In this document: positions 27,002-34,456 of the stretch, piece by piece | How positions within the stretch are numbered: the stretch's first letter is position 1 | How the letters are laid out: the number at the start of each line of letters is the position of its first letter | IMG/VR virus record: IMGVR_UViG_3300025086_000089 | Location: 1-38,216 of that record | Strand: one strand, 5' to 3' | DNA from: a virus | Length of the DNA: 38,216 bases | The notes under the pieces: generated by a model | What the model saw: the letters and a program-made list of their open reading frames with translations, nothing else | Told to the model about the DNA's origin: nothing | Databases searched by the model: none | Translations under genes and position numbers: made by a program

Positions 27002-28489
27002 TTATTCCTCCACTAATACTGCTACATCTGTTGAATAGAATAACTGTGCTATTGACATTGCCGCTAAGAAACTGTTCTTAGTAACTTTAACTGGGTCAAA
27101 TACTCCGAATAGAGAAAGGTCACAAACTACTCCGGTAAGAGCATTAAAGCCTGTAGGGTATTCTGTAAAGGGAATAAATTCAGTATTGCTATTTTCAAAT
27201 AAAGTCTTATATGGAGCCGACATTGCTGTTTTAAGCCACATAGGAGCCTCTATGGACTTTGCACACTCCATTAGGGCTAGACCTCCACCAGTTACAATAC
27301 CTTCCGATAAGGCCGCTCTAGTAGCGTTTAGAGCATCATCTAATCTTTCTTTCTTTTCTAGCATTTCCATAGAAGAAGAAGCACCAACTCTAATAGTTGC
27401 TACTCCGCCTTTTAATCTAGCAATTCTTGATTTAATCCTAGCAGACTCAAAGCCTTCCATTGTTTTCAATAAGCCTTTCAAAGATTCTATTCTTTCGGAA
27501 GTATCTCCTTTAGCACCAATAACTATTGTTCTTTCTTTGTGGACTTCAATCATTTCACAGTTACCAAAATCAGTTTCCTTGAAAGAAGTAGGTCTATCTT
27601 TACTTTCTTCAGTGAAGATAGTTCCACCAACCATAGCCTGTATATCTGCTAACTCATCTAGTTGTTGGTCGCCAAAATTAGGGGCTAAGCATACAACACA
27701 CTCAACAGTTTTATTCATGATATTCATTAGTAAATTGTTAAGGGCTGAACCGTCCATTCCTTTACAAAAGATAACTAGAGGTCTATTAGTGGTAGCAGCA
27801 TGTTCTAACATAGGAAGTAGGTCTTTGAAGTTTCTAAACTTTAGATTAGACATAAAGATTAGAGGATTACTAAACATTGCTTTACCATCATCAGTATTAG
27901 CCATTAAATGACTGATATATCCTTCAGTAAGTTGCATGCCTTCTCTAACCATTAGTTCAGTTATATGAGATTTTGATTCTTCAACAGTAACTATTCCTTC
28001 TCTACCAACTTTAGATATGGCTTCTCCAATTAATGTTCCCAAAGCCATATCGTTATTTGCGGCAATGGTGGCTACATCTATTATTTCTTCATCTTTAATA
28101 TCTAAGGCCAAATCATCTAATCTAGTTATCATCTCTACTTTGAATGATTCAAGAATATGATACACTTCGTGAGTAGTCATAGGTTCTTCTACACCAAACA
28201 TATGATTACACAATGCTTGAGCAAGAATACAAGCGGTAGTAGTTCCATCACCAGAATTATCTTGTGCTTTACTTGCTAAGTTTTGAACCATTTGAATGCC
28301 CATTTGAACATAGGGGTCATCATGAGATATGTGTTTTGTTATTGTTACACCATCATTTACTATAATAGGAGGATTACCTTGTAGAATAACTGTTTTGGCT
28401 TGTGGCCCCAAAGTTGGGCTTACCGTATTAGCAACTAAATTAATTCCTTGTAGTAGTTTTTCTTTTACTTCTTTTCCGTGTATAATCAT
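27002..28489 (-). CDS. groEL: Group I chaperonin GroEL (Cpn60, 495 aa)
   Basis: The sequence is GroEL-type (group I), not a thermosome: VANTVSPTLGPQAKTVILQ, VNDGVTITKHI and NSGDGTTTACILAQAL form the ATP site, and ERLDDALNATRAALSEGIVTGGGLAL carries the catalytic Asp equivalent to E. coli D398. The apical domain is present (EGMQLTEGYISH onward). It is shorter than E. coli GroEL (548) and lacks the Gly-Gly-Met tail. I chose ATG 28489, with GGTGGA upstream and an ATGA overlap. It would fold viral structural or replication proteins with the GroES encoded at 28698-28913. Confidence 0.93.
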   Translation of the reverse strand: MIIHGKEVKEKLLQGINLVANTVSPTLGPQAKTVILQGNPPIIVNDGVTITKHISHDDPYVQMGIQMVQNLASKAQDNSGDGTTTACILAQALCNHMFGVEEPMTTHEVYHILESFKVEMITRLDDLALDIKDEEIIDVATIAANNDMALGTLIGEAISKVGREGIVTVEESKSHITELMVREGMQLTEGYISHLMANTDDGKAMFSNPLIFMSNLKFRNFKDLLPMLEHAATTNRPLVIFCKGMDGSALNNLLMNIMNKTVECVVCLAPNFGDQQLDELADIQAMVGGTIFTEESKDRPTSFKETDFGNCEMIEVHKERTIVIGAKGDTSERIESLKGLLKTMEGFESARIKSRIARLKGGVATIRVGASSSMEMLEKKERLDDALNATRAALSEGIVTGGGLALMECAKSIEAPMWLKTAMSAPYKTLFENSNTEFIPFTEYPTGFNALTGVVCDLSLFGVFDPVKVTKNSFLAAMSIAQLFYSTDVAVLVEE

Positions 28490-28701
28490 TCTTCCACCAA
28501 CCTTGTTTGTATTCCTCTCCACAAATCATAGGCTTGTTTCTTTTCGGGAATCGTAGTCAATAATGTTTTTATCATCATTAGTAAAAACTCTAATTCACCA
28601 ACCAAAAGCCTATCATCTATTTCTTCTCTAAATAAATCTCCATTTTCAGTAACATCAATCATTCTTAACAAAATACTTTCATATAATTCTATATCGTTCA
28701 T
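28486..28701 (-). CDS. Unknown small helical protein between groES and groEL (71 aa)
   Basis: The chain is helical: MNDIELYESILLRMIDVTEN, 'VGELEFLLMMIKTLLTTIPE', 'AYDLWRGIQTRL'. No family is recognised. ATGA overlaps on both sides tie it to the chaperonin pair, so it may be a small adaptor or simply a co-expressed gene. Confidence 0.6.
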   Translation of the reverse strand: MNDIELYESILLRMIDVTENGDLFREEIDDRLLVGELEFLLMMIKTLLTTIPEKKQAYDLWRGIQTRLVEE

Positions 28702-28913
28702 TCTAACACCGCCATTATCTTATCATAAGGAACAAACTTCATTCCGTCGTATTCTTGTATTGACCTTTCAGTGGAAAATATTACTACTTTACCTTCTAAA
28801 TCGGGTTCTATTAAACAGGATAATACTCTTCCTACATTGTTTTCTTTCATCATAATCTTTCCACTACCTTGTATTTCAGGTTCTACAATTACATAATCAT
28901 TCTTCGCTTTCAT
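28698..28913 (-). CDS. groES: GroES-like co-chaperonin (Cpn10, 71 aa)
   Basis: The beta-barrel pattern of Cpn10 is readable: KNDYVIVEPEIQG at the start, a mobile-loop-like segment GSGKIMMKENN, then VGRVLSCL and GKVVIFSTERSIQEYDGMKF ending VPYDKIMAVLE (the usual 'Y-d-g-x-x-y-x-h-x-x-x-x-h-x-A-h-h'). At 71 residues it is well short of the usual 95 or so, mainly in the roof region. It directly precedes the GroEL gene with one small gene between. It should cap the viral GroEL. Confidence 0.8.
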   Translation of the reverse strand: MKAKNDYVIVEPEIQGSGKIMMKENNVGRVLSCLIEPDLEGKVVIFSTERSIQEYDGMKFVPYDKIMAVLE

Positions 28914-29070
28914 TATTCTTCACCATACCGCCGTCTAATTCATTTTTTTTATTCAATTCTCTCTCAAACATTTCTAGAGCAGAATGAATAACCGGAGTTC
29001 CATTACCTTCGGCTATTATCTTTTTCATTCTCTTAATCGCCATCAAGTAATCGTGTTTGAATACAGTCAC
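28897..29070 (-). CDS. Unknown small charged protein (57 aa)
   Basis: The GTG at 29070 overlaps the JAMM gene stop (GTGA) and has GGAGAG upstream. The chain is VFKHDYLMAIKRMKKIIAEG, then a helix SALEMFERELNKKNE and an acidic end. It overlaps the groES start by 17 bases. No family is recognised. Confidence 0.55.
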   Translation of the reverse strand: MTVFKHDYLMAIKRMKKIIAEGNGTPVIHSALEMFERELNKKNELDGGMVKNNESEE

Positions 29071-29717
29071 TCTTCTTCACTCTCCGTCTCTTGACCCCAA
29101 TATTGCATTCTTTCTAATTGACGATTACGATAGATTGCTAATTGTTTTGGTTTGGTTTGTTGCCACCAACCATAGTGTTCAACCCCACTACCTCCCAAAA
29201 CAAATGCTTCTGTCATTAGAGGCTTCCATTGAGATACTGTTCTAATATCTACACCACTAAAATAGGCGGCACCAAATGGATGAGTATGAGTCCAACATCT
29301 AATAGGAAGTTTCATTCCTACAGGAGGCTTCATTCCAAATTCTACATAGCCCGGAGAACCAGTAGTAACATAACAGTCATTATTTCCATCAATCACTACT
29401 TGCACTTCAAGACCCGGTAATATCTCGGTAGAAGCATGCCAAATAGCACCAAAGAATAGTTCGCTCTTATAGGATGTCATATCTACTGTGTGTCTATTAT
29501 TCCAATCAACACCAATGCTTTTCAATTCTAACATTGCTTCTTCGACCCAAACATTTAGAATATGTTGTTCAGCCCGTTCTCTAGCCTTTTCTAAAGCCTC
29601 AAATTCCTTTTCTGCTTCAGCAATCTGTAAATCTTCAAGGTACTTATCATACCCATCATCATCATGATAGCCTCTTTTTTCTTCTTCTCTTAAATTCCAA
29701 TCACTTGTCTTACTCAT
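29067..29717 (-). CDS. JAMM/MPN+ metalloprotease (ubiquitin-like deconjugase type, 216 aa)
   Basis: The zinc site is complete: CWTHTHPFGAAYFSGVDIRT contains H-x-H-P-x6-S-x2-D (His144, His146, Ser154, Asp157); a Glu at 98 or 103 can supply the fourth catalytic residue. The first 55 residues form a charged helix absent from minimal JAB domains. JAMM enzymes remove ubiquitin-like proteins or process their C-terminal tails. The E1-like gene lies 11 bases upstream, and a ubiquitin-like gene ending GGQQ lies about 4.5 kb upstream in the same array. A free phage tail-type JAB role is the alternative, but this gene is not in the tail operon. Confidence 0.85.
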   Translation of the reverse strand: MSKTSDWNLREEEKRGYHDDDGYDKYLEDLQIAEAEKEFEALEKARERAEQHILNVWVEEAMLELKSIGVDWNNRHTVDMTSYKSELFFGAIWHASTEILPGLEVQVVIDGNNDCYVTTGSPGYVEFGMKPPVGMKLPIRCWTHTHPFGAAYFSGVDIRTVSQWKPLMTEAFVLGGSGVEHYGWWQQTKPKQLAIYRNRQLERMQYWGQETESEEE

Positions 29718-29728
29718 TTCTTTTCACC

Positions 29729-30292
29729 TCACATATTAATTACTTCATAATCCTTAACTGTCTCATTATCTTGAAACCATCTTTGAATCCATTGTGCGCC
29801 CAATCCTGCAATTGCCACTTGCATAAAATGAACTCCTTCTGTTGAACCATCCCATGTTTCTCCTTGACAACTAAACGAACCATCCTTTCCTGCTAAAAGC
29901 GTATCATACATCTTAGGGTCTGCTTTATGCGACACAAGTGCGGCATTCCTACCTTGCGCTCTCAAATCAAGCCATTTAATATTTGTGTTGTATAAAGTTC
30001 TTCTAACTGATAAATTATCTACACAACAAATAACCAAGTCATATCCTTTCATTTGTTTTTCTGTTAGAATAGGATATTGAGAACCACCCATTACACTACG
30101 GTATTTATTACCCATAACCGATGCTTTGTTTTCTCCTACATCATCAGCACTAAAGTTTTGATATGGTAAATTTTTATTTTCTACCTTATCAGGGTCTGCT
30201 ACTGATATGTTATACAATTCTACTTTATCTAAAAGCGGTAACAAGAAACTCCCGATACCACCTGCTCCAATTATTAATATTTTTCTTTTCAT
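29729..30292 (-). CDS. E1-like/ThiF-MoeB adenylyltransferase (187 aa)
   Basis: The Rossmann ATP-binding start ILIIGAGGIGSFLLPLLD (Gly-rich loop 9-15) is followed by ADPDKVENKNLPYQNF, the 'D-x-D-x-V-x-x-x-N-L' element, and YDLVICCVDNLSVRRTLYN, the 'D-x-V-h-x-x-x-D-N-x-x-x-R' element. Cys142 in GSFSCQG could be the thiol acceptor. The Arg usually after N-L is missing (N-L-P-Y-Q). The protein is short, about 60 residues under ThiF, and has no C-x2-C zinc site. Start ATG 30292 has GGAGG seven bases upstream. It probably adenylates the Gly-Gly end of the viral ubiquitin-like protein. Confidence 0.85.
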   Translation of the reverse strand: MKRKILIIGAGGIGSFLLPLLDKVELYNISVADPDKVENKNLPYQNFSADDVGENKASVMGNKYRSVMGGSQYPILTEKQMKGYDLVICCVDNLSVRRTLYNTNIKWLDLRAQGRNAALVSHKADPKMYDTLLAGKDGSFSCQGETWDGSTEGVHFMQVAIAGLGAQWIQRWFQDNETVKDYEVINM

Positions 30293-30294
30293 TT

Positions 30295-30624
30295 TTATTC
30301 CTCCCAATATGGGTCTAGTTTGTCATTAGGTAGCATATCCCAACTACCTTTCATAGAATGTTCAAACGATACATCCTCTACAAAATCAGGATTCTTAAGC
30401 AATAACAAGGGCTTGTGCCAATTATCATCCGCTTGCGCTTGTTCTATTACTTTGTTCATCTGTTCTGCTTTGTCATCGGGTAATTCTACCCAATAAACCA
30501 TAGCGTGTCTTTGTCTATTTAGTCTCGCTCTCATGGTTATTGTCATTGGAGCATATCCTACACCTTCACATTCCATAAAAGATTCTAAACCGTGAGCATC
30601 TGCTATTCCACAATATGTTTTCAT
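30295..30624 (-). CDS. Unknown protein upstream of the E1-like gene (109 aa)
   Basis: MKTYCGIADAHGLESFMECE is a distinctive start: Cys5 and a following strand-turn 'G-I-A-D-A-H-G-L-E-S'. The middle has RLNRQRHAMVYWVELPDD and a helix EQMNKVIEQAQ; the end is acidic and Trp-rich. I recognise no family. It is two bases upstream of the E1-like start and shares its ribosome binding region, so it is a candidate partner of the tagging module, perhaps an E2- or adaptor-like element, without evidence beyond position. Confidence 0.55.
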   Translation of the reverse strand: MKTYCGIADAHGLESFMECEGVGYAPMTITMRARLNRQRHAMVYWVELPDDKAEQMNKVIEQAQADDNWHKPLLLLKNPDFVEDVSFEHSMKGSWDMLPNDKLDPYWEE

Positions 30625-30625
30625 T

Positions 30626-30784
30626 CTAATCTCTCCTAATTATTCCTTTATCACTTTTGTTGGGGTCAAAGGTTTCCCCTGTAAATTTTGCTTGTTTTTC
30701 CCAACATTCTATATTGCACCAATTCCTACTATTGATAGTAACTGTTGTAAACTTTCTACATCTTGGTCGGCTACATCTTCCCAT
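30626..30784 (-). CDS. Small zinc-finger protein (52 aa)
   Basis: MGRCSRPRCRKFTTVTINSR carries Cys4 and Cys9, and WCNIECWEKQ carries a second pair, a plausible four-Cys zinc site. The start follows the previous stop by one base (TAAAATG). It ends with IIRRD, and the GGAGA sequence at its end is the ribosome binding site for the next gene. Confidence 0.55.
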   Translation of the reverse strand: MGRCSRPRCRKFTTVTINSRNWCNIECWEKQAKFTGETFDPNKSDKGIIRRD

Positions 30785-30785
30785 T

Positions 30786-30992
30786 TTATTCACCTCTACT
30801 AATTATTTTCTTTTCTATCAATTCAGCGTAGTTATCCATCCAGTTTGCTACAACCTTTATTGATTCTCTTCGGCCTAAACCGAACTCCTCTCTCAAATAT
30901 GGAGCAGAACCAAACATATTGGTTACTCCACTTTGCCGTAATTCTTCTAAATACACATAGTATTCAATCCATTCTTCATTTATTCCTGTCAT
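30786..30992 (-). CDS. Conserved phage-type small protein (68 aa)
   Basis: The pattern 'YYVYLEELRQSGVTNMFGSA' followed by PYLREEFGL and a helix ending 'VVANWMDNYAELI' has the look of a family common in marine phages, of unknown function. It is helical without membrane segments. Its start overlaps the previous stop. Confidence 0.55.
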   Translation of the reverse strand: MTGINEEWIEYYVYLEELRQSGVTNMFGSAPYLREEFGLGRRESIKVVANWMDNYAELIEKKIISRGE

Positions 30993-31222
30993 TGTTTATT
31001 CCTCCATATTATATTGTTATGTATTTTACAAAATCCTGCTTTTTCATAATGAATTCTAAGAATCATTTGTAATTGATTAGGAGATACATGCCCCTTTTTA
31101 ACTGGTCTACCGTTTGCATTTTTAGCATTAGATAATCTTTCTTTAATTTCTGTTGTTGTCAATTCTTCTTTATCTAACATTGACTTTATTTTTAGATGCG
31201 CCCATTTATTCTTTTTTGGCAT
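30989..31222 (-). CDS. Small basic helix-turn-helix-like protein (77 aa)
   Basis: Helices KIKSMLDKEEL, TTTEIKERLSNAKN and SPNQLQMILRIHYEKAGFCK, with a basic sequence throughout, suggest a winged helix. A strong GAGGAGG ribosome binding site precedes the ATG at 31222. It may bind DNA. Fold inferred from pattern. Confidence 0.6.
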   Translation of the reverse strand: MPKKNKWAHLKIKSMLDKEELTTTEIKERLSNAKNANGRPVKKGHVSPNQLQMILRIHYEKAGFCKIHNNIIWRNKQ

Positions 31223-31224
31223 TA

Positions 31225-31338
31225 TTATTCCTCCTCTAATGGTTTAAGATTGTCAAATGATTTTTGACCCTGTTTTCTAAACCGAAACTTTAGTTTGGCT
31301 TTCTTTAAAATTTCAGCAAATCTTTCTAATCTAAACAC
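31225..31338 (-). CDS. Very small basic protein (37 aa)
   Basis: A GTG at 31338 directly follows the stop of the MazG-like gene. The peptide is FRLERFAEILKKAKLKFRFR, then a short polar stretch ending in LEEE; the end contains the ribosome binding site of the next gene. It is supported only by spacing. Confidence 0.4.
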   Translation of the reverse strand: MFRLERFAEILKKAKLKFRFRKQGQKSFDNLKPLEEE

Positions 31339-31662
31339 TTAAAACGCCTTCCCATGCATAAATTCCCGATTCTTATTATAATCTAGTTTGGCCAGTAATG
31401 CTCCTGCTACATCTAAATCCTTACCAAAAGCATAATCCATAATGCGAATTATGGCATCTGCTAGTTCTTCTTCTACACTAGAAAACTCTAGAATTTTAGA
31501 AGAAGTGGGGTTGCCGTTTCTCATAGCCTCTAATGCTTCGCTTATTTCCGAATGCACCAAAGCCATAGCCTCTCCGTCATTTCTTTCTTCTTTCCAAAAG
31601 CCGTGATTTACAGCATTTTTATATATTATTTTGGCCACTTTATTCCATTCTTTTTCAAACAT
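31339..31662 (-). CDS. MazG-like NTP pyrophosphohydrolase (107 aa)
   Basis: The MazG helices are clear: ALVHSEISEALEAMRNG (metal-binding E-x2-E) and VEEELADAIIRIMDYA (E-x2-D/E), followed by the usual end KLDYNKNREFMHGKAF. This is the single-domain phage form. It hydrolyses NTPs or dNTPs, and in phages may lower ppGpp or clear altered nucleotides. It lies just after the TFB gene. Confidence 0.85.
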   Translation of the reverse strand: MFEKEWNKVAKIIYKNAVNHGFWKEERNDGEAMALVHSEISEALEAMRNGNPTSSKILEFSSVEEELADAIIRIMDYAFGKDLDVAGALLAKLDYNKNREFMHGKAF

Positions 31663-31664
31663 TT

Positions 31665-32519
31665 TTATTCACCTATTTTATTTACATCTTTTCCTCTTAA
31701 TTGTTTTACATTGGTTAAGCCCAATAGCGTTAGAAGTGATTTAGTTTGTAAATAGATGCACTTCTCATCTATTTCTGCCTTTTCAGCAATTAAACTTCTA
31801 GTATATTCTCTAACAAATACATTAGAAGTTATCCAACAAATACTTGCATAATACGACCTGCTTTTCGTATAATTAGCATTTAATAAAATTTGCTCAAATC
31901 TAGTCAATACCTCAATACTTTGATTGTAAAAAGATAAGTCATTTGTTATCTTTACTAGAGTTCTTCTTAGATAAGATTCTGGATTTACAGGAGTATAATT
32001 TATTTTATTTTTATAAAAAGAATTAATCTTCCTAAGAATCTTTTTGACTAGTTTAGTTTCTACTTGGAATTCTTTACAGACTTCTTTTAAAGAAACAGGA
32101 TTACCTTGTTCCTTCAAAACATAATACACTATTGCTGTTGCTCTATTTTCATAGGTGTATTTTTTGAAAGAATCTAGCGAAGCATATAGTTCTAAATACA
32201 CTTCTTCTATTCTTTCTTTGGCTTCTAAAGAAGAAGAAACATTACTCAGTACCATATTACAATATATGAGTGCAGTTCTAATATGAGGAGGGGTTGCCGA
32301 ATAGTTTCTTCTATTGTATTTAGAAGAACCTTTTCCAGTAATTATTGACCCTAAATTACCTTTATCCGAACTATGTTTCAGTTCACCTTTACCGTCCAAT
32401 ATGTGTACTGTTTCTTCAAATATTTCTTGAACTAAGACTAGGCCGCATTCGGAACATACTCTTTCTCCTAATCTTTCATCAAAGTAGTTTTCTTTACTTG
32501 AGCATTCTTCACAAATCAT
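31665..32519 (-). CDS. tfb: Transcription initiation factor TFB (284 aa)
   Basis: The N-terminus is a TFIIB zinc ribbon: ICEECSS (Cys3, Cys6) and RVCSECGLVL (Cys22, Cys25). The linker has the GKGSSKYNRRNY stretch (B-finger-like), then two cyclin-like repeats: about 110-180 and 200-280, with 'YENRATAIVYYVLKEQGNPV' and 'TKSRSYYASICWITSNVFVR'. I chose ATG 32519 because the ribbon should start near the N-terminus; two ATGs upstream (32540, 32546) lie inside the preceding gene. TFB recruits RNA polymerase to TATA promoters, so a viral copy can direct host polymerase to viral genes. Confidence 0.9.
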   Translation of the reverse strand: MICEECSSKENYFDERLGERVCSECGLVLVQEIFEETVHILDGKGELKHSSDKGNLGSIITGKGSSKYNRRNYSATPPHIRTALIYCNMVLSNVSSSLEAKERIEEVYLELYASLDSFKKYTYENRATAIVYYVLKEQGNPVSLKEVCKEFQVETKLVKKILRKINSFYKNKINYTPVNPESYLRRTLVKITNDLSFYNQSIEVLTRFEQILLNANYTKSRSYYASICWITSNVFVREYTRSLIAEKAEIDEKCIYLQTKSLLTLLGLTNVKQLRGKDVNKIGE

Positions 32520-33657
32520 CCATATCAATCCTATTTTCATTTTCATTATCTGTAATATACGAATTAATCGTATTAACTATTTTTATTGTGTGAGTGTCAT
32601 TCATTAATGCTAATGCTCTACCGGCAAACTGGTCGCCAACAGGAGTATGATTACCCATATTATCTATGCAGATAGAACCTCTCCAACCGCATTTACCGAA
32701 ATTAAACTCATCAGTTTTGTTGCCGTCATCATCATATACATAATTTTTTTCGGGTTGCCAAATATAAGTAGATACTGCTTGATTAGCACTTTTACCTTTA
32801 TATTCTAACTTCCAATCGAATTCCCTTCCTCGGACATATAGCGTTTGTAGTTTATCTTCTTTATAATTGGCTCGTAGTTTGCTAGGGTATTGTGCTAACA
32901 TTTCTTGTACTAATTCATATGCTTTCTTTTCAACAATATCTGCTTTTCTATTTTGTTTTAGAAAGGCAACTAAAACTTTCAAATCAGATTCTGATGGAAA
33001 TTTACCCATTAACCTATAATAGAACTGTTTTGGAGAAGTATATTTCCAAGAACAATTCTTGGTGTTTTTGGTATCAATATAAAAACTAGAATACTTTATT
33101 AGTTCTTTAATAGAAATAGAACCCCAAATACCATCTCCTATCTCTATGGCGCATTCATCGGGGGATATTTGTTTTACATTCAAACGAACTTCGTGTTTTA
33201 CAAAGTCACTATAAAACCAATACGGTAGTCTATTTTCAATGACATATTTGACTACTTCGGGTAGTTTAGTAGTTTGATAAAGATATGGCATTAGTTTAAG
33301 TGGGTCTTTTTCAAAACAACTTTTGAATAAAACTCTTGCTAAGGCATGACATAATTCATCCATTAGCATAATTTTGCCATTAATATAGTACCTAGACGAT
33401 TTTTGGATAACGAATGGTGTTTCTCCTATCATTAGGGTAGTCGTTCCTTCCGGAATGCCATGAAAAAACTTTTGTGTGCCTCTTTTATTTTTAAAGGAAC
33501 TCAAAAAGTGTTGATAAATAGACTGGTGAATAGGGTCTTTAGCGCTAACTGGATGAATTGTTGCAATTGAACCATGTATGTTCCTACCAACAATATTTAG
33601 TTCAGTTTCCCAATATTCATTTGCTCCGTCATGTGGTTTTCTAATTCTTATTTTCAT
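32509..33657 (-). CDS. Unknown protein (382 aa)
   Basis: The N-terminus MKIRIRKPHDGANEYWETEL leads into a beta-rich region, helices around 110-170, and a C-terminal beta domain containing GKCGWRGSICIDNMGNHTPV and DQFAGRALALMND. No catalytic motif is sure. The tail is acidic (DNENENRIDMDDL) and overlaps the TFB start. Mixed fold suggests a multi-domain soluble protein; I do not recognise it. Confidence 0.6.
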   Translation of the reverse strand: MKIRIRKPHDGANEYWETELNIVGRNIHGSIATIHPVSAKDPIHQSIYQHFLSSFKNKRGTQKFFHGIPEGTTTLMIGETPFVIQKSSRYYINGKIMLMDELCHALARVLFKSCFEKDPLKLMPYLYQTTKLPEVVKYVIENRLPYWFYSDFVKHEVRLNVKQISPDECAIEIGDGIWGSISIKELIKYSSFYIDTKNTKNCSWKYTSPKQFYYRLMGKFPSESDLKVLVAFLKQNRKADIVEKKAYELVQEMLAQYPSKLRANYKEDKLQTLYVRGREFDWKLEYKGKSANQAVSTYIWQPEKNYVYDDDGNKTDEFNFGKCGWRGSICIDNMGNHTPVGDQFAGRALALMNDTHTIKIVNTINSYITDNENENRIDMDDL

Positions 33658-33662
33658 TTATA

Positions 33663-33824
33663 TCACATCATATATACATTTTTATTATCTTTGTTGCATT
33701 TTTCATGCATTTCTATTTTTATTTCTTGTGGAGTGTAAAGTTTGCCGCCACACACTCGACAGTGCGTAGCAACCATGTTATTTTTTCTGTTATTTAAAAT
33801 ATGCTTAGGGTCTTTTTCTTTCAT
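33663..33824 (-). CDS. Small zinc-ribbon protein (53 aa)
   Basis: After a basic N-terminus (MKEKDPKHILNNRKNN) comes HCRVCGGKLYT and later MHEKCN, so Cys-x2-Cys plus His/Cys make a zinc site. It overlaps the upstream stop (TAATG). Function unknown. Confidence 0.55.
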   Translation of the reverse strand: MKEKDPKHILNNRKNNMVATHCRVCGGKLYTPQEIKIEMHEKCNKDNKNVYMM

Positions 33825-34180
33825 TAGTATTCCCCAAATAAATAATCAATGTTTTTCTTTCTTTCGTTGCATATTTTACATTCTTTTTTACCATCTAATA
33901 AAACACAATTTTTTTCATGGTATTTTGATAGATGGTAATAGTAGTTTATTTTATTGTCAAGATAAATACTAAATCCTTTATCTACGGCAAGCGGAACCTG
34001 CCAAAATATATCGTATAGTGTTGTCTTTAACATGAATTTTTTGTCTCTATCTGAGTAGTTAGAAGACATAATGGTGATGTTTCTTATTATATTTTTATCT
34101 TCTGCTTTTAATTCTCGCATAAATAAAATTGTTGCATCCAATACACCGCTATAAGGCAGTTTATTGAACACGATGAACAC
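33824..34180 (-). CDS. Unknown protein with C-terminal Cys pair (118 aa)
   Basis: The body alternates strands and helices (SGVLDATILFMREL, NIIRNITIMSS, GFSIYLDNKINYYYHLSKYH) and the end has ECKICNERKKN. The likely start is GTG (34180 or 34171), directly after the hairpin region 34190-34226, with no Shine-Dalgarno site. This is the only gene here with so structured a leader. Could be a nuclease-like fold with a His-Cys end, but no motif is sure. Confidence 0.55.
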   Translation of the reverse strand: MFIVFNKLPYSGVLDATILFMRELKAEDKNIIRNITIMSSNYSDRDKKFMLKTTLYDIFWQVPLAVDKGFSIYLDNKINYYYHLSKYHEKNCVLLDGKKECKICNERKKNIDYLFGEY

Positions 34181-34189
34181 CGAAGGGTT

Positions 34190-34226
34190 GGAAAGCCACT
34201 ATCTAGGGTTAGGATAGTGACTCTCC
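34190..34226. repeat. Imperfect hairpin in the gap after the ubiquitin-like gene
   Basis: Arms GGAAAGCCACTATC (34190-34203) and GATAGTGACTCTCC (34213-34226) pair at 12 of 14 positions with a nine-base loop. It lies between the ubiquitin-like gene and the next start. There is no T-run after it on either strand, so it does not look like a plain terminator; a structured RNA leader or processing site is possible. Confidence 0.5.
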
Positions 34227-34231
34227 ACAAC

Positions 34232-34251
34232 AAACAGAATAAATACTGTTT
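34232..34251. repeat. Short inverted repeat beside the ubiquitin-like stop codon
   Basis: AAACAG (34232-34237) and CTGTTT (34246-34251) can pair around an AT-rich loop, right behind the stop of the ubiquitin-like gene. With the larger hairpin next to it, this makes the most structured gap in the leftward array. Confidence 0.4.
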
Positions 34252-34456
34252 ATTGTTGACCTCCAACAATCGCAGGGGTTAAGTCTACTGATGTAACATC
34301 ATCCCAATTAATTCCTGTAATCTCTTCTCTCGCTACCATTTCCCCATCAATAAAGCACCAATGGGTTGGGTGTCGGTCTATCTGTTCAATTATCTCTTCT
34401 TTTGCGAGAGATAGCGTTGTGTGTCCTGTCTCGTTTAATATTCTTAATGTAATCAT
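34250..34456 (-). CDS. Ubiquitin-like beta-grasp protein ending in Gly-Gly-Gln-Gln (68 aa)
   Basis: The layout fits a ubiquitin-like fold: strand MITLRILNETG, strand HTTLSL, helix AKEEIIEQIDRH, strand HWCFIDGEMV, and a final strand VTSVDLTPAIVGG with the Gly-Gly at 65-66. Two residues (QQ) follow the Gly-Gly, so activation would need trimming, a job suited to the JAMM protease encoded at 29067-29717. An E1-like enzyme is encoded at 29729-30292. Most C-terminal Gly-Gly ends in this genome come from ribosome binding sites, but here no start codon follows GGAGGT at useful distance. A TATA-like box lies upstream. Confidence 0.7.
   Translation of the reverse strand: MITLRILNETGHTTLSLAKEEIIEQIDRHPTHWCFIDGEMVAREEITGINWDDVTSVDLTPAIVGGQQ

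Follow-up and report, generated by a model that had tools for sequence, protein, structure and literature searches.

Bacterial gene clusters that combine an E1-like enzyme, a JAB protein and a ubiquitin (Ub)-like protein were described in 2006, along with a Ub-like/JAB pair in phage tail clusters (passages of PMC1779556). In sampylation (SAMP, UbaA and HvJAMM1; PfSAMP2 and PfJAMM1), a free beta-grasp modifier with a C-terminal Gly-Gly is found with a single E1, a JAMM protein and no recognised E2, and in a haloarchaeon the conjugation of ubiquitin-like proteins (Ubl) is supported by two proteins, UbaA, which is an E1, and MsrA, which is not an E2 (PMC5587910). Modules of this kind are known from cells, and some of the bacterial ones are anti-phage; a whole conserved set in an archaeal virus would reverse that. 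Such a set is encoded by the IMG/VR virus record IMGVR_UViG_3300025086_000089 (38,216 bases; its whole length is hereafter called the window), a virus record in its own right, and consists of a ubiquitin-like protein (UBL), an E1/ThiF-like enzyme (E1) and a JAMM metalloprotease (JAMM). Together these probably form a virus-encoded, reversible ubiquitin-like tagging system that operates without a recognised E2, a reading that draws on the predicted folds, on the conservation of catalytic residues, on gene linkage and on signs of purifying selection. The original prediction, made from the letters of the window, had named the same three parts, and all three open reading frames (ORFs) were confirmed in their places on the minus strand and match their names.

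The window belongs to the magroviruses, as its gene content fits the family profile (PMC10768690; passages on chaperonins in PMC5332604). Magroviruses are tailed viruses of marine Poseidoniales archaea, with PolB, clamp, RFC, ligase and TFB-type genes as well as GroEL and GroES in the profile, and marine samples containing them are reported worldwide (PMC10768690), so that the system may operate at large scale. A 92,808-base record, IMGVR_UViG_3300025102_000012, encodes UBL, E1 and JAMM proteins that are 100% identical to those of the window. No published account of a magrovirus tagging cluster was found in the literature searched, a limited library in which absence carries little weight: ubiquitin, ThiF and JAB go unmentioned in PMC10160649, PMC5332604 and PMC8651126, and the family profile of the International Committee on Taxonomy of Viruses (PMC10768690) names GroEL/GroES and no ubiquitin system.

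The three proteins and their conservation

Searches with UBL, E1 and JAMM fetched 112 loci, 104 of them with a UBL match, which together gave 61 distinct complete UBL sequences; a UBL search of viral contigs returned 86 relatives, of which 80 were retained. The AlphaFold2 model of the UBL (predicted local distance difference test (pLDDT) 87, predicted template modelling score (pTM) 0.70) follows the order strand-strand-helix-strand-strand-short helix-strand (E2-8, E11-17, H19-28, E32-36, E39-41, H43-46, E56-61), and the predicted fold is that of ubiquitin (beta-grasp), as had been proposed. The leading rows of a Foldseek search of the PDB were mostly ubiquitin, SUMO, ISG15, MoaD and ThiS (best E 5.7e-3). 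In VIA-align, MoaD was the best row (Z 6.0, root-mean-square deviation (rmsd) 3.8, 63 residues), with a bacterial Ubl complexed with its deubiquitinase (Z 5.3, rmsd 2.8, 61 residues), PfSAMP2 (Z 5.1, rmsd 2.8, 53 residues) and ThiS (Z 5.0, rmsd 2.8, 57 residues) also present; TtuB was among the structural matches as well. Giant-virus ubiquitin-like proteins took three of the first six rows when a viral structure library was queried. Sequence searches alone (Pfam, PDB profile and NCBIfam) did not place the UBL in any ubiquitin family: no such family was matched in Pfam at E 1 by the window protein or its relatives, and the UBL profile retrieved only two rows from the PDB sequences, both at chance level.

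The C-terminal Gly-Gly is invariant in all 61 distinct UBLs and lies 0-2 residues before the end of the protein. It is followed by two residues in 45 sequences, by one in nine and by none in seven, with 24 different endings, and such a freely varying tail beside a fixed Gly-Gly fits the dispensability of everything past it. The other invariant positions are N8, G11, H12, I26, H29, P30, H32, W33, R43, W51, L59, A62 and V64, which precedes the two glycines (G65, G66). Against phage records the UBL matched a single phage, in two records at E 0.2, which we regard as a chance hit. A scan of genome contigs found two only, NZTP01000027.1 and NZTP01000030.1 (L119 and L120), both from an Altibacter metagenome-assembled genome and encoding magrovirus UBLs with 78-79% identity; the bin probably holds virus sequence that was mis-binned.

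The assignment of the E1 was upheld by Pfam, where ThiF (PF00899) was matched at 60.4 bits against a cut-off of 28.1 (E 1.8e-16). A profile built from 56 relatives matched UBA5, Cap2, the NEDD8 E1, MccB, MoeB and ThiF, with E values of roughly 1e-5 to 1e-8, and also Uba4. The glycine-rich loop (GxGGxG), the DxD motif and the catalytic-type Asp motif are invariant across 56 aligned sequences, and Cys142, Asp92 and Arg111 are kept in all 77 distinct E1 sequences. Searches with the E1 returned 63 phage and 311 plasmid records, all below 60% identity.

The JAMM protein carries the complete H-x-H-P-x6-S-x2-D motif, intact as originally read, in 76 of 76 relatives, and Glu104, His144, His146, Ser154 and Asp157 are invariant in these 76 distinct sequences. 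Prok-JAB (PF14464) is below its cut-off for the window protein (E 0.03), and is matched at E 1 or better by 57 of 61 relatives (best 4e-5); a profile of 61 sequences matched human AMSH-LP at 2e-4. In the AlphaFold2 model (pLDDT 86) the structural matches cover residues from about 67 to 208, with PfJAMM1 at the top (Z 8.2, rmsd 3.3, 109 residues), tied with AMSH (Z 8.0), and with BubCD (Z 7.3) and Rpn11 also present. Rpn11, CSN5-type and AF2198 JAMM proteins were the first Foldseek rows; up to about residue 67 the protein is helical, a part that this search hardly probed. No match at E 1 was found by tblastn of the JAMM protein against 50,697 phage records. A JAMM with intact motif is kept in all seven loci whose UBL already ends in Gly-Gly, and since no trimming is needed there, trimming is not its sole job in these loci; its retention points to the removal of conjugates as probably the job of the JAMM protein.

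Gene linkage and the surrounding genes

All 99 loci with UBL and JAMM also carry E1, a 382-amino-acid (aa) protein and a TFB homologue between them on the same strand, in the order UBL, 382-aa protein, TFB, E1 and JAMM, and in most the GroES-like and GroEL-type genes come next. These loci overlap (several per contig), and merging on a shared exact 300-mer gave 74 groups, of which 66 have all three genes of the tagging set and 8 are without one or two. In each of the latter the sequence breaks off close to the genes that were detected; JAMM, lacking in L015 and L073, turns up at the opposite end of their own records (G301 and G318), and for L029 the E1 is in another stretch of its own record (L151). 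A sample chosen independently of the trait consisted of 20 records of at least 40 kb, taken from 80 returned by a search with the ligase gene. UBL, E1 and JAMM were each found in the same 18 of these 20, most of which overlap the first set of loci, and in the other two the contig extends just 2.5 and 1.1 kb beyond the ligase in the direction of the expected cluster, so that its apparent lack there may reflect truncation. The predicted co-occurrence of the three genes in relatives is borne out in both samples, and the tagging set is part of the gene content that the fetched magroviruses have in common.

Across the 57 loci that carry all five genes, the median identity between pairs is 71% for UBL, 66% for E1, 47% for JAMM, 39% for the 382-aa protein and 34% for TFB. 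The median ratios of nonsynonymous to synonymous substitutions (dN/dS) are 0.16, 0.17, 0.38, 0.38 and 0.45, respectively, making UBL and E1 the most constrained of the five proteins compared; as dS is near saturation these values are rough and the ranking is safer, which tempers the argument from purifying selection. The ratios were computed from 1,596 pairs per gene, dropping those with a proportion of synonymous or nonsynonymous differences (pS or pN) of at least 0.7 or a dS of 0.05 or less, which left 658 pairs for UBL, 941 for E1, 1,191 for JAMM, 904 for the 382-aa protein and 721 for TFB. Strong constraint on a modifier and its activator is the expected effect of many binding surfaces.

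The 382-aa protein has Cys330, Asp342, Gln343, Arg347, Asn353 and Asp354 in 78 of 78 sequences, and these are likewise invariant in an alignment of 57. Its C-terminal part reads V-S-T-Y-V-x-Q-P ... W-x-G-P-I-C-I-D-N, from which some members depart, and the second segment resembles what we take to be the active-site segment of UBC (E2) enzymes. An E2 assignment was not upheld: profile searches of the PDB, run with the whole protein and with its C-terminal part, returned no row at E 10, none of the Pfam families listed for the 57 members (25 of 32) was an E2, and a comparison against six Prok-E2_B domains yielded P 0.22, a value within the range of unrelated controls (0.07 to 0.61). The protein fell into no NCBIfam or PDB family, and no Pfam family was matched by more than 3 of the 57 members. 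Its profile did not match protein B of the plasmid PRTRC system (P 0.29), and comparisons with two proteins of crAss-like phages gave P 0.23 to 0.59 for gp78 and only P 0.045 for gp75; tblastn against the 50,697 phage records found no match at E 1. With its invariant cysteine, the protein is a candidate transfer (E2-like) or effector protein. It and TFB accompany the set in every one of the 99 loci, and for this reason they are the natural first suspects as substrates or partners of tagging.

The features of this part of the window are collected in Table 1. Pfam confirms TFB and the chaperonin among the window proteins. Other ORFs on the minus strand are presumably parts of PolB, a sliding clamp, the RFC small subunit and an ATP-dependent ligase, and the long ORFs on the plus strand look structural by eye. 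The 107-aa ORF is presumably MazG-like. The original prediction had the chaperonin genes following the set directly; a chaperonin does lie downstream, but a 57-aa ORF and a 71-aa GroES-like ORF separate JAMM from the GroEL-type gene, and the tie of the chaperonin to the tagging set is one of position only. Several minus-strand ORFs of the window end in EE or EEE (e.g., those at 29067, 28897, 28486, 25161, 24814 and 37790), perhaps reflecting overlap with the ribosome-binding site of the next gene (GAGGAG/GAAGAA).

Table 1. Features in and around the putative tagging set of the window.
Feature	Coordinates	Strand	Basis and occurrence
UBL, 68 aa, ends ...AIVGG-QQ	34250..34456	-	AlphaFold2 beta-grasp model, ubiquitin-fold structural matches, invariant Gly-Gly
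Protein of unknown family, 118 aa	33824..34180	-	Between UBL and JAMM in 67/99 loci
382-aa protein, family unknown; candidate for an E2-like transfer or effector role	32509..33657	-	Invariant Cys330; 99/99 loci with UBL and JAMM
TFB homologue	31665..32546	-	Pfam Zn_Ribbon_TF 2.6e-7; between UBL and E1 in 99/99 loci
107-aa ORF	31339..31662	-	Within the interval in 31/99 loci
Unknown 109-aa ORF directly upstream of E1	30295..30624	-	7/99 loci, hence not core
E1/ThiF-like adenylating enzyme, 187 aa	29729..30292	-	Pfam ThiF; GxGGxG, DxD, catalytic-type Asp92, invariant Cys142
JAMM/MPN+ metalloprotease, 216 aa, HTHPFGAAYFSGVD	29067..29717	-	Predicted JAMM fold, intact motif; N-terminal helical extension
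57-aa ORF overlapping the JAMM stop	28897..29070	-	4/112 fetched loci, hence not core
GroES-like 71-aa ORF	28698..28913	-	Label from position and resemblance, without Pfam GroES match; GroES named for the virus family (PMC10768690)
Chaperonin, GroEL-type by phmmer synteny and family profile	27002..28522	-	Pfam Cpn60_TCP1 1.1e-38; downstream of JAMM in most loci

A proposed tagging cycle and its alternatives

In the proposed cycle, JAMM or a host protease would trim the 0-2 residues past Gly-Gly, a step that 7 of the 61 UBLs would not need. The exposed C-terminal Gly would then be adenylated by the E1, as its conserved ThiF site suggests, and Cys142 may hold the UBL as a thioester. From there, more speculatively, viral or host proteins might receive the UBL on their amino groups, either directly or via a partner, a role for which the 382-aa protein is the strongest candidate, and the fold and intact site of JAMM suggest that it would remove the tag. 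The likely purpose is control of the activity or stability of host or viral proteins, and the location of the cluster on the replication side suggests an early or middle role in infection. If correct, a prokaryotic virus would here be employing ubiquitin-like tagging for its own ends, and the module offers a small, testable case of conjugation without a known E2. As judged from models and alignments, the tagging interpretation is supported overall, its predicted fold, conserved Gly-Gly and co-occurring genes all having held.

Several observations weigh against this interpretation. Neither the UBL nor the JAMM model has a Foldseek match in the PDB at E 0.001 (2.2e-3 is the best for JAMM), and the Z values are middling for both (at best 6.0 and 8.2), although a single fold dominates the UBL list; that of JAMM also includes RadC (Z 7.5) and cytidine deaminases (Z 6.3-6.7). 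The main, sub-threshold Pfam resemblance of the UBL is to a Lon inhibitor (see below). The UBL relatives are closely related to one another (at least 54% identity in every pair from the 57 loci), which limits the weight of conservation, and for that reason the fixed Gly-Gly beside a variable tail counts for more than conservation as such. The UBL gene is also 3.9 kb from, and not adjacent to, that of the E1. The original remark that no E2 or E3 is seen stands in that scans of cluster proteins with Pfam and NCBIfam recognised no E2 family (no search was aimed at E3 families), itself a point against a conjugation system; the co-conserved 382-aa protein, with its invariant Cys, might serve as E2. 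A UQ_con search likewise found no E2, and its positive control also gave no match.

A stronger version of the proposal is a complete, self-sufficient cycle of UBL, E1, an unrecognised E2-like 382-aa enzyme (acting through Cys330) and JAMM which, with the viral TFB, would serve a core lytic function by tagging host or viral proteins. This is possible but rather doubtful; if true, it would be the counterpart, in a prokaryotic virus, of eukaryote-like ubiquitylation.

ThiS, MoaD, TtuB and CysO are sulfur carriers, and Mec is a JAMM-type releaser in the CysO pathway. An E1 that makes a UBL thiocarboxylate donating sulfur to tRNA, a cofactor or cysteine, with JAMM freeing the product, is an unlikely explanation of the set, yet one that draws on the presence of MoaD (as the best row), ThiS and TtuB among the UBL matches, on the likeness of the E1 to ThiF and MoeB, and on known bacterial clusters of a ThiS/MoaD-like protein, a JAB, an E1-like protein and sulfur genes (passages of PMC1779556). 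Set against it, the E1 has no rhodanese domain in the Pfam scan, and rhodanese (PF00581), ATP_bind_3 (PF01171) and PALP (PF00291) were each found in 0 of 25 near-genome-length magrovirus records of 86-97 kb, with controls matching 13, 14 and 14 of 14 genomes, respectively; cysteine desulfurase was not searched for. We take ATP_bind_3 to be the TtuA/TilS family and PALP the CysM family. The absence of these families speaks against a self-contained viral sulfur pathway, but host enzymes could still supply one.

The set could also serve counter-defence only, JAMM stripping host modifiers off viral proteins while UBL and E1 act as decoys against a host Ubl defence. Many predicted deSAMPylases, proposed to work against tagging by the host, are encoded by archaeal Borg elements (passages of PMC12660748), and bacterial Ubl systems act against phages (PMC10097602, PMC12948488); however, the constraint on UBL and E1 exceeds that on JAMM, and the E1 keeps catalytic-type residues that a decoy would not need, which makes this account quite improbable. 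It is very unlikely that JAMM instead processes the UBL in tail assembly in the manner of lambda TAPI/TAPK. Phage tail clusters do have a Ub-like TAPI and a JAB-bearing TAPK (passages of PMC1779556), and Tip attachment protein J accounted for two of the first ten UBL matches in the viral structure library, but the UBL is a free protein and no domain of a longer tail protein, NlpC/P60 is absent from JAMM and 60 relatives (all 20 Pfam families found being listed), an E1 is present, and the cluster shares the minus strand with replication-type genes, apart from the structural-looking ORFs of the plus strand. Least credible is a UBL that acts as a PinA-like inhibitor of host Lon, with the E1/JAMM pair serving otherwise: Pfam PinA (Lon inhibitor, PF10465) is matched at E 1 or better by 34 of 61 members (best 1.4e-4) and the PHROG Lon-inhibitor family by 14 of 61 (best 0.0085), but the window protein reaches only 18.2 bits against a cut-off of 27 (E 0.0024), and the match spans residues 8-53 only, excluding the invariant VGG end.

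Comparison with known systems

The magrovirus set shares with sampylation the modifier type, the single E1, the JAMM protein and the want of a recognised E2, and among the structural matches PfJAMM1 and PfSAMP2 both come from that system. It differs in being virus-encoded and clustered, in a UBL that sequence searches link to no known Ubl family, and in the N-terminal helical extension of its JAMM. The comparison with sampylation in the original prediction is apt as an analogy but does not extend to the E1 itself, which scores 29.2 bits against a cut-off of 450 for the UbaA-type E1 (NCBIfam NF047750).

The closest relative of the E1 appears to be the ThiF of PRTRC, a plasmid system of ThiF and proteins A, B, C and E. 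PRTRC ThiF is its best NCBIfam match, at 49.6 bits, below the family cut-off of 144.75; a single-pair profile comparison with one PRTRC ThiF aligns most of its length (164 columns, E 7.9e-14), with Cys142 (S-F-S-C-Q) in register with the PRTRC cysteine (S-P-S-C). Small protein C and protein A lie near the PRTRC E1 gene, and we take protein A to be JAB-like, in part from its HSHG...S..D stretch. The PRTRC C compared (L180) ends in VGTKG and does not align with the UBL, and counterparts of PRTRC A, B and E were not detected in the magrovirus set, in which UBL, JAMM and the 382-aa protein have no NCBIfam match and no significant alignment to A and B of L180 (E was covered by NCBIfam only).

E1-type activation and JAMM deconjugation are also features of CBASS Cap2/Cap3, Bil and Bub, and Cap2, BubCD and the bacterial complex of Ubl and deubiquitinase are among the matches of the viral proteins, but these belong to cells and include an E2 domain or protein, whereas the magrovirus set is viral with no E2 recognised. 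The E1-E2 models of PADLOC match the viral E1 in their E1 part only. Borgs are archaeal extrachromosomal elements that likewise encode JAMM (AMSH-like) proteins, but there JAMM is described in many copies, a SAMP in one of the Borgs and the E1 as encoded by the host (passages of PMC12660748).

Among phages, the crAss-like Steigviridae have adjacent genes for an E1/ThiF (gp76) and a metalloprotease with a JAMM motif (gp77, HSHNNMATFFSGTD) near replication genes, seen in L114 (1986-5657, crAss001 gp78-gp76), L113, L115, L182 and L183. Single-pair profile comparisons match them to the magrovirus proteins at E 4.5e-15 (E1) and 2.2e-5 (JAMM). They differ in the larger gp76 (383 aa in crAss001) and in having no free small UBL ending in Gly-Gly within 4-5 kb in the five loci; L114 has a 187-aa ORF with Gly-Gly four residues before its end. 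The neighboring gp78 has a conserved HSH...C-x-G-x-GPI stretch and no match to Prok-E2_B (P 0.2). In Xanthomonas phage PhiXhv-12 (L116, 1253-4806; 227-kb genome), an E1/ThiF gene follows that of an 893-aa Cys-rich protein whose HPHM...HGSLCLG stretch is E2-like by eye.

By the comparisons applied here, the magrovirus set is none of the PRTRC, SAMP, CBASS, Bil or lambda-tail systems; it would, by analogy, work most like sampylation, with an E1 that is nearest in sequence to PRTRC ThiF.

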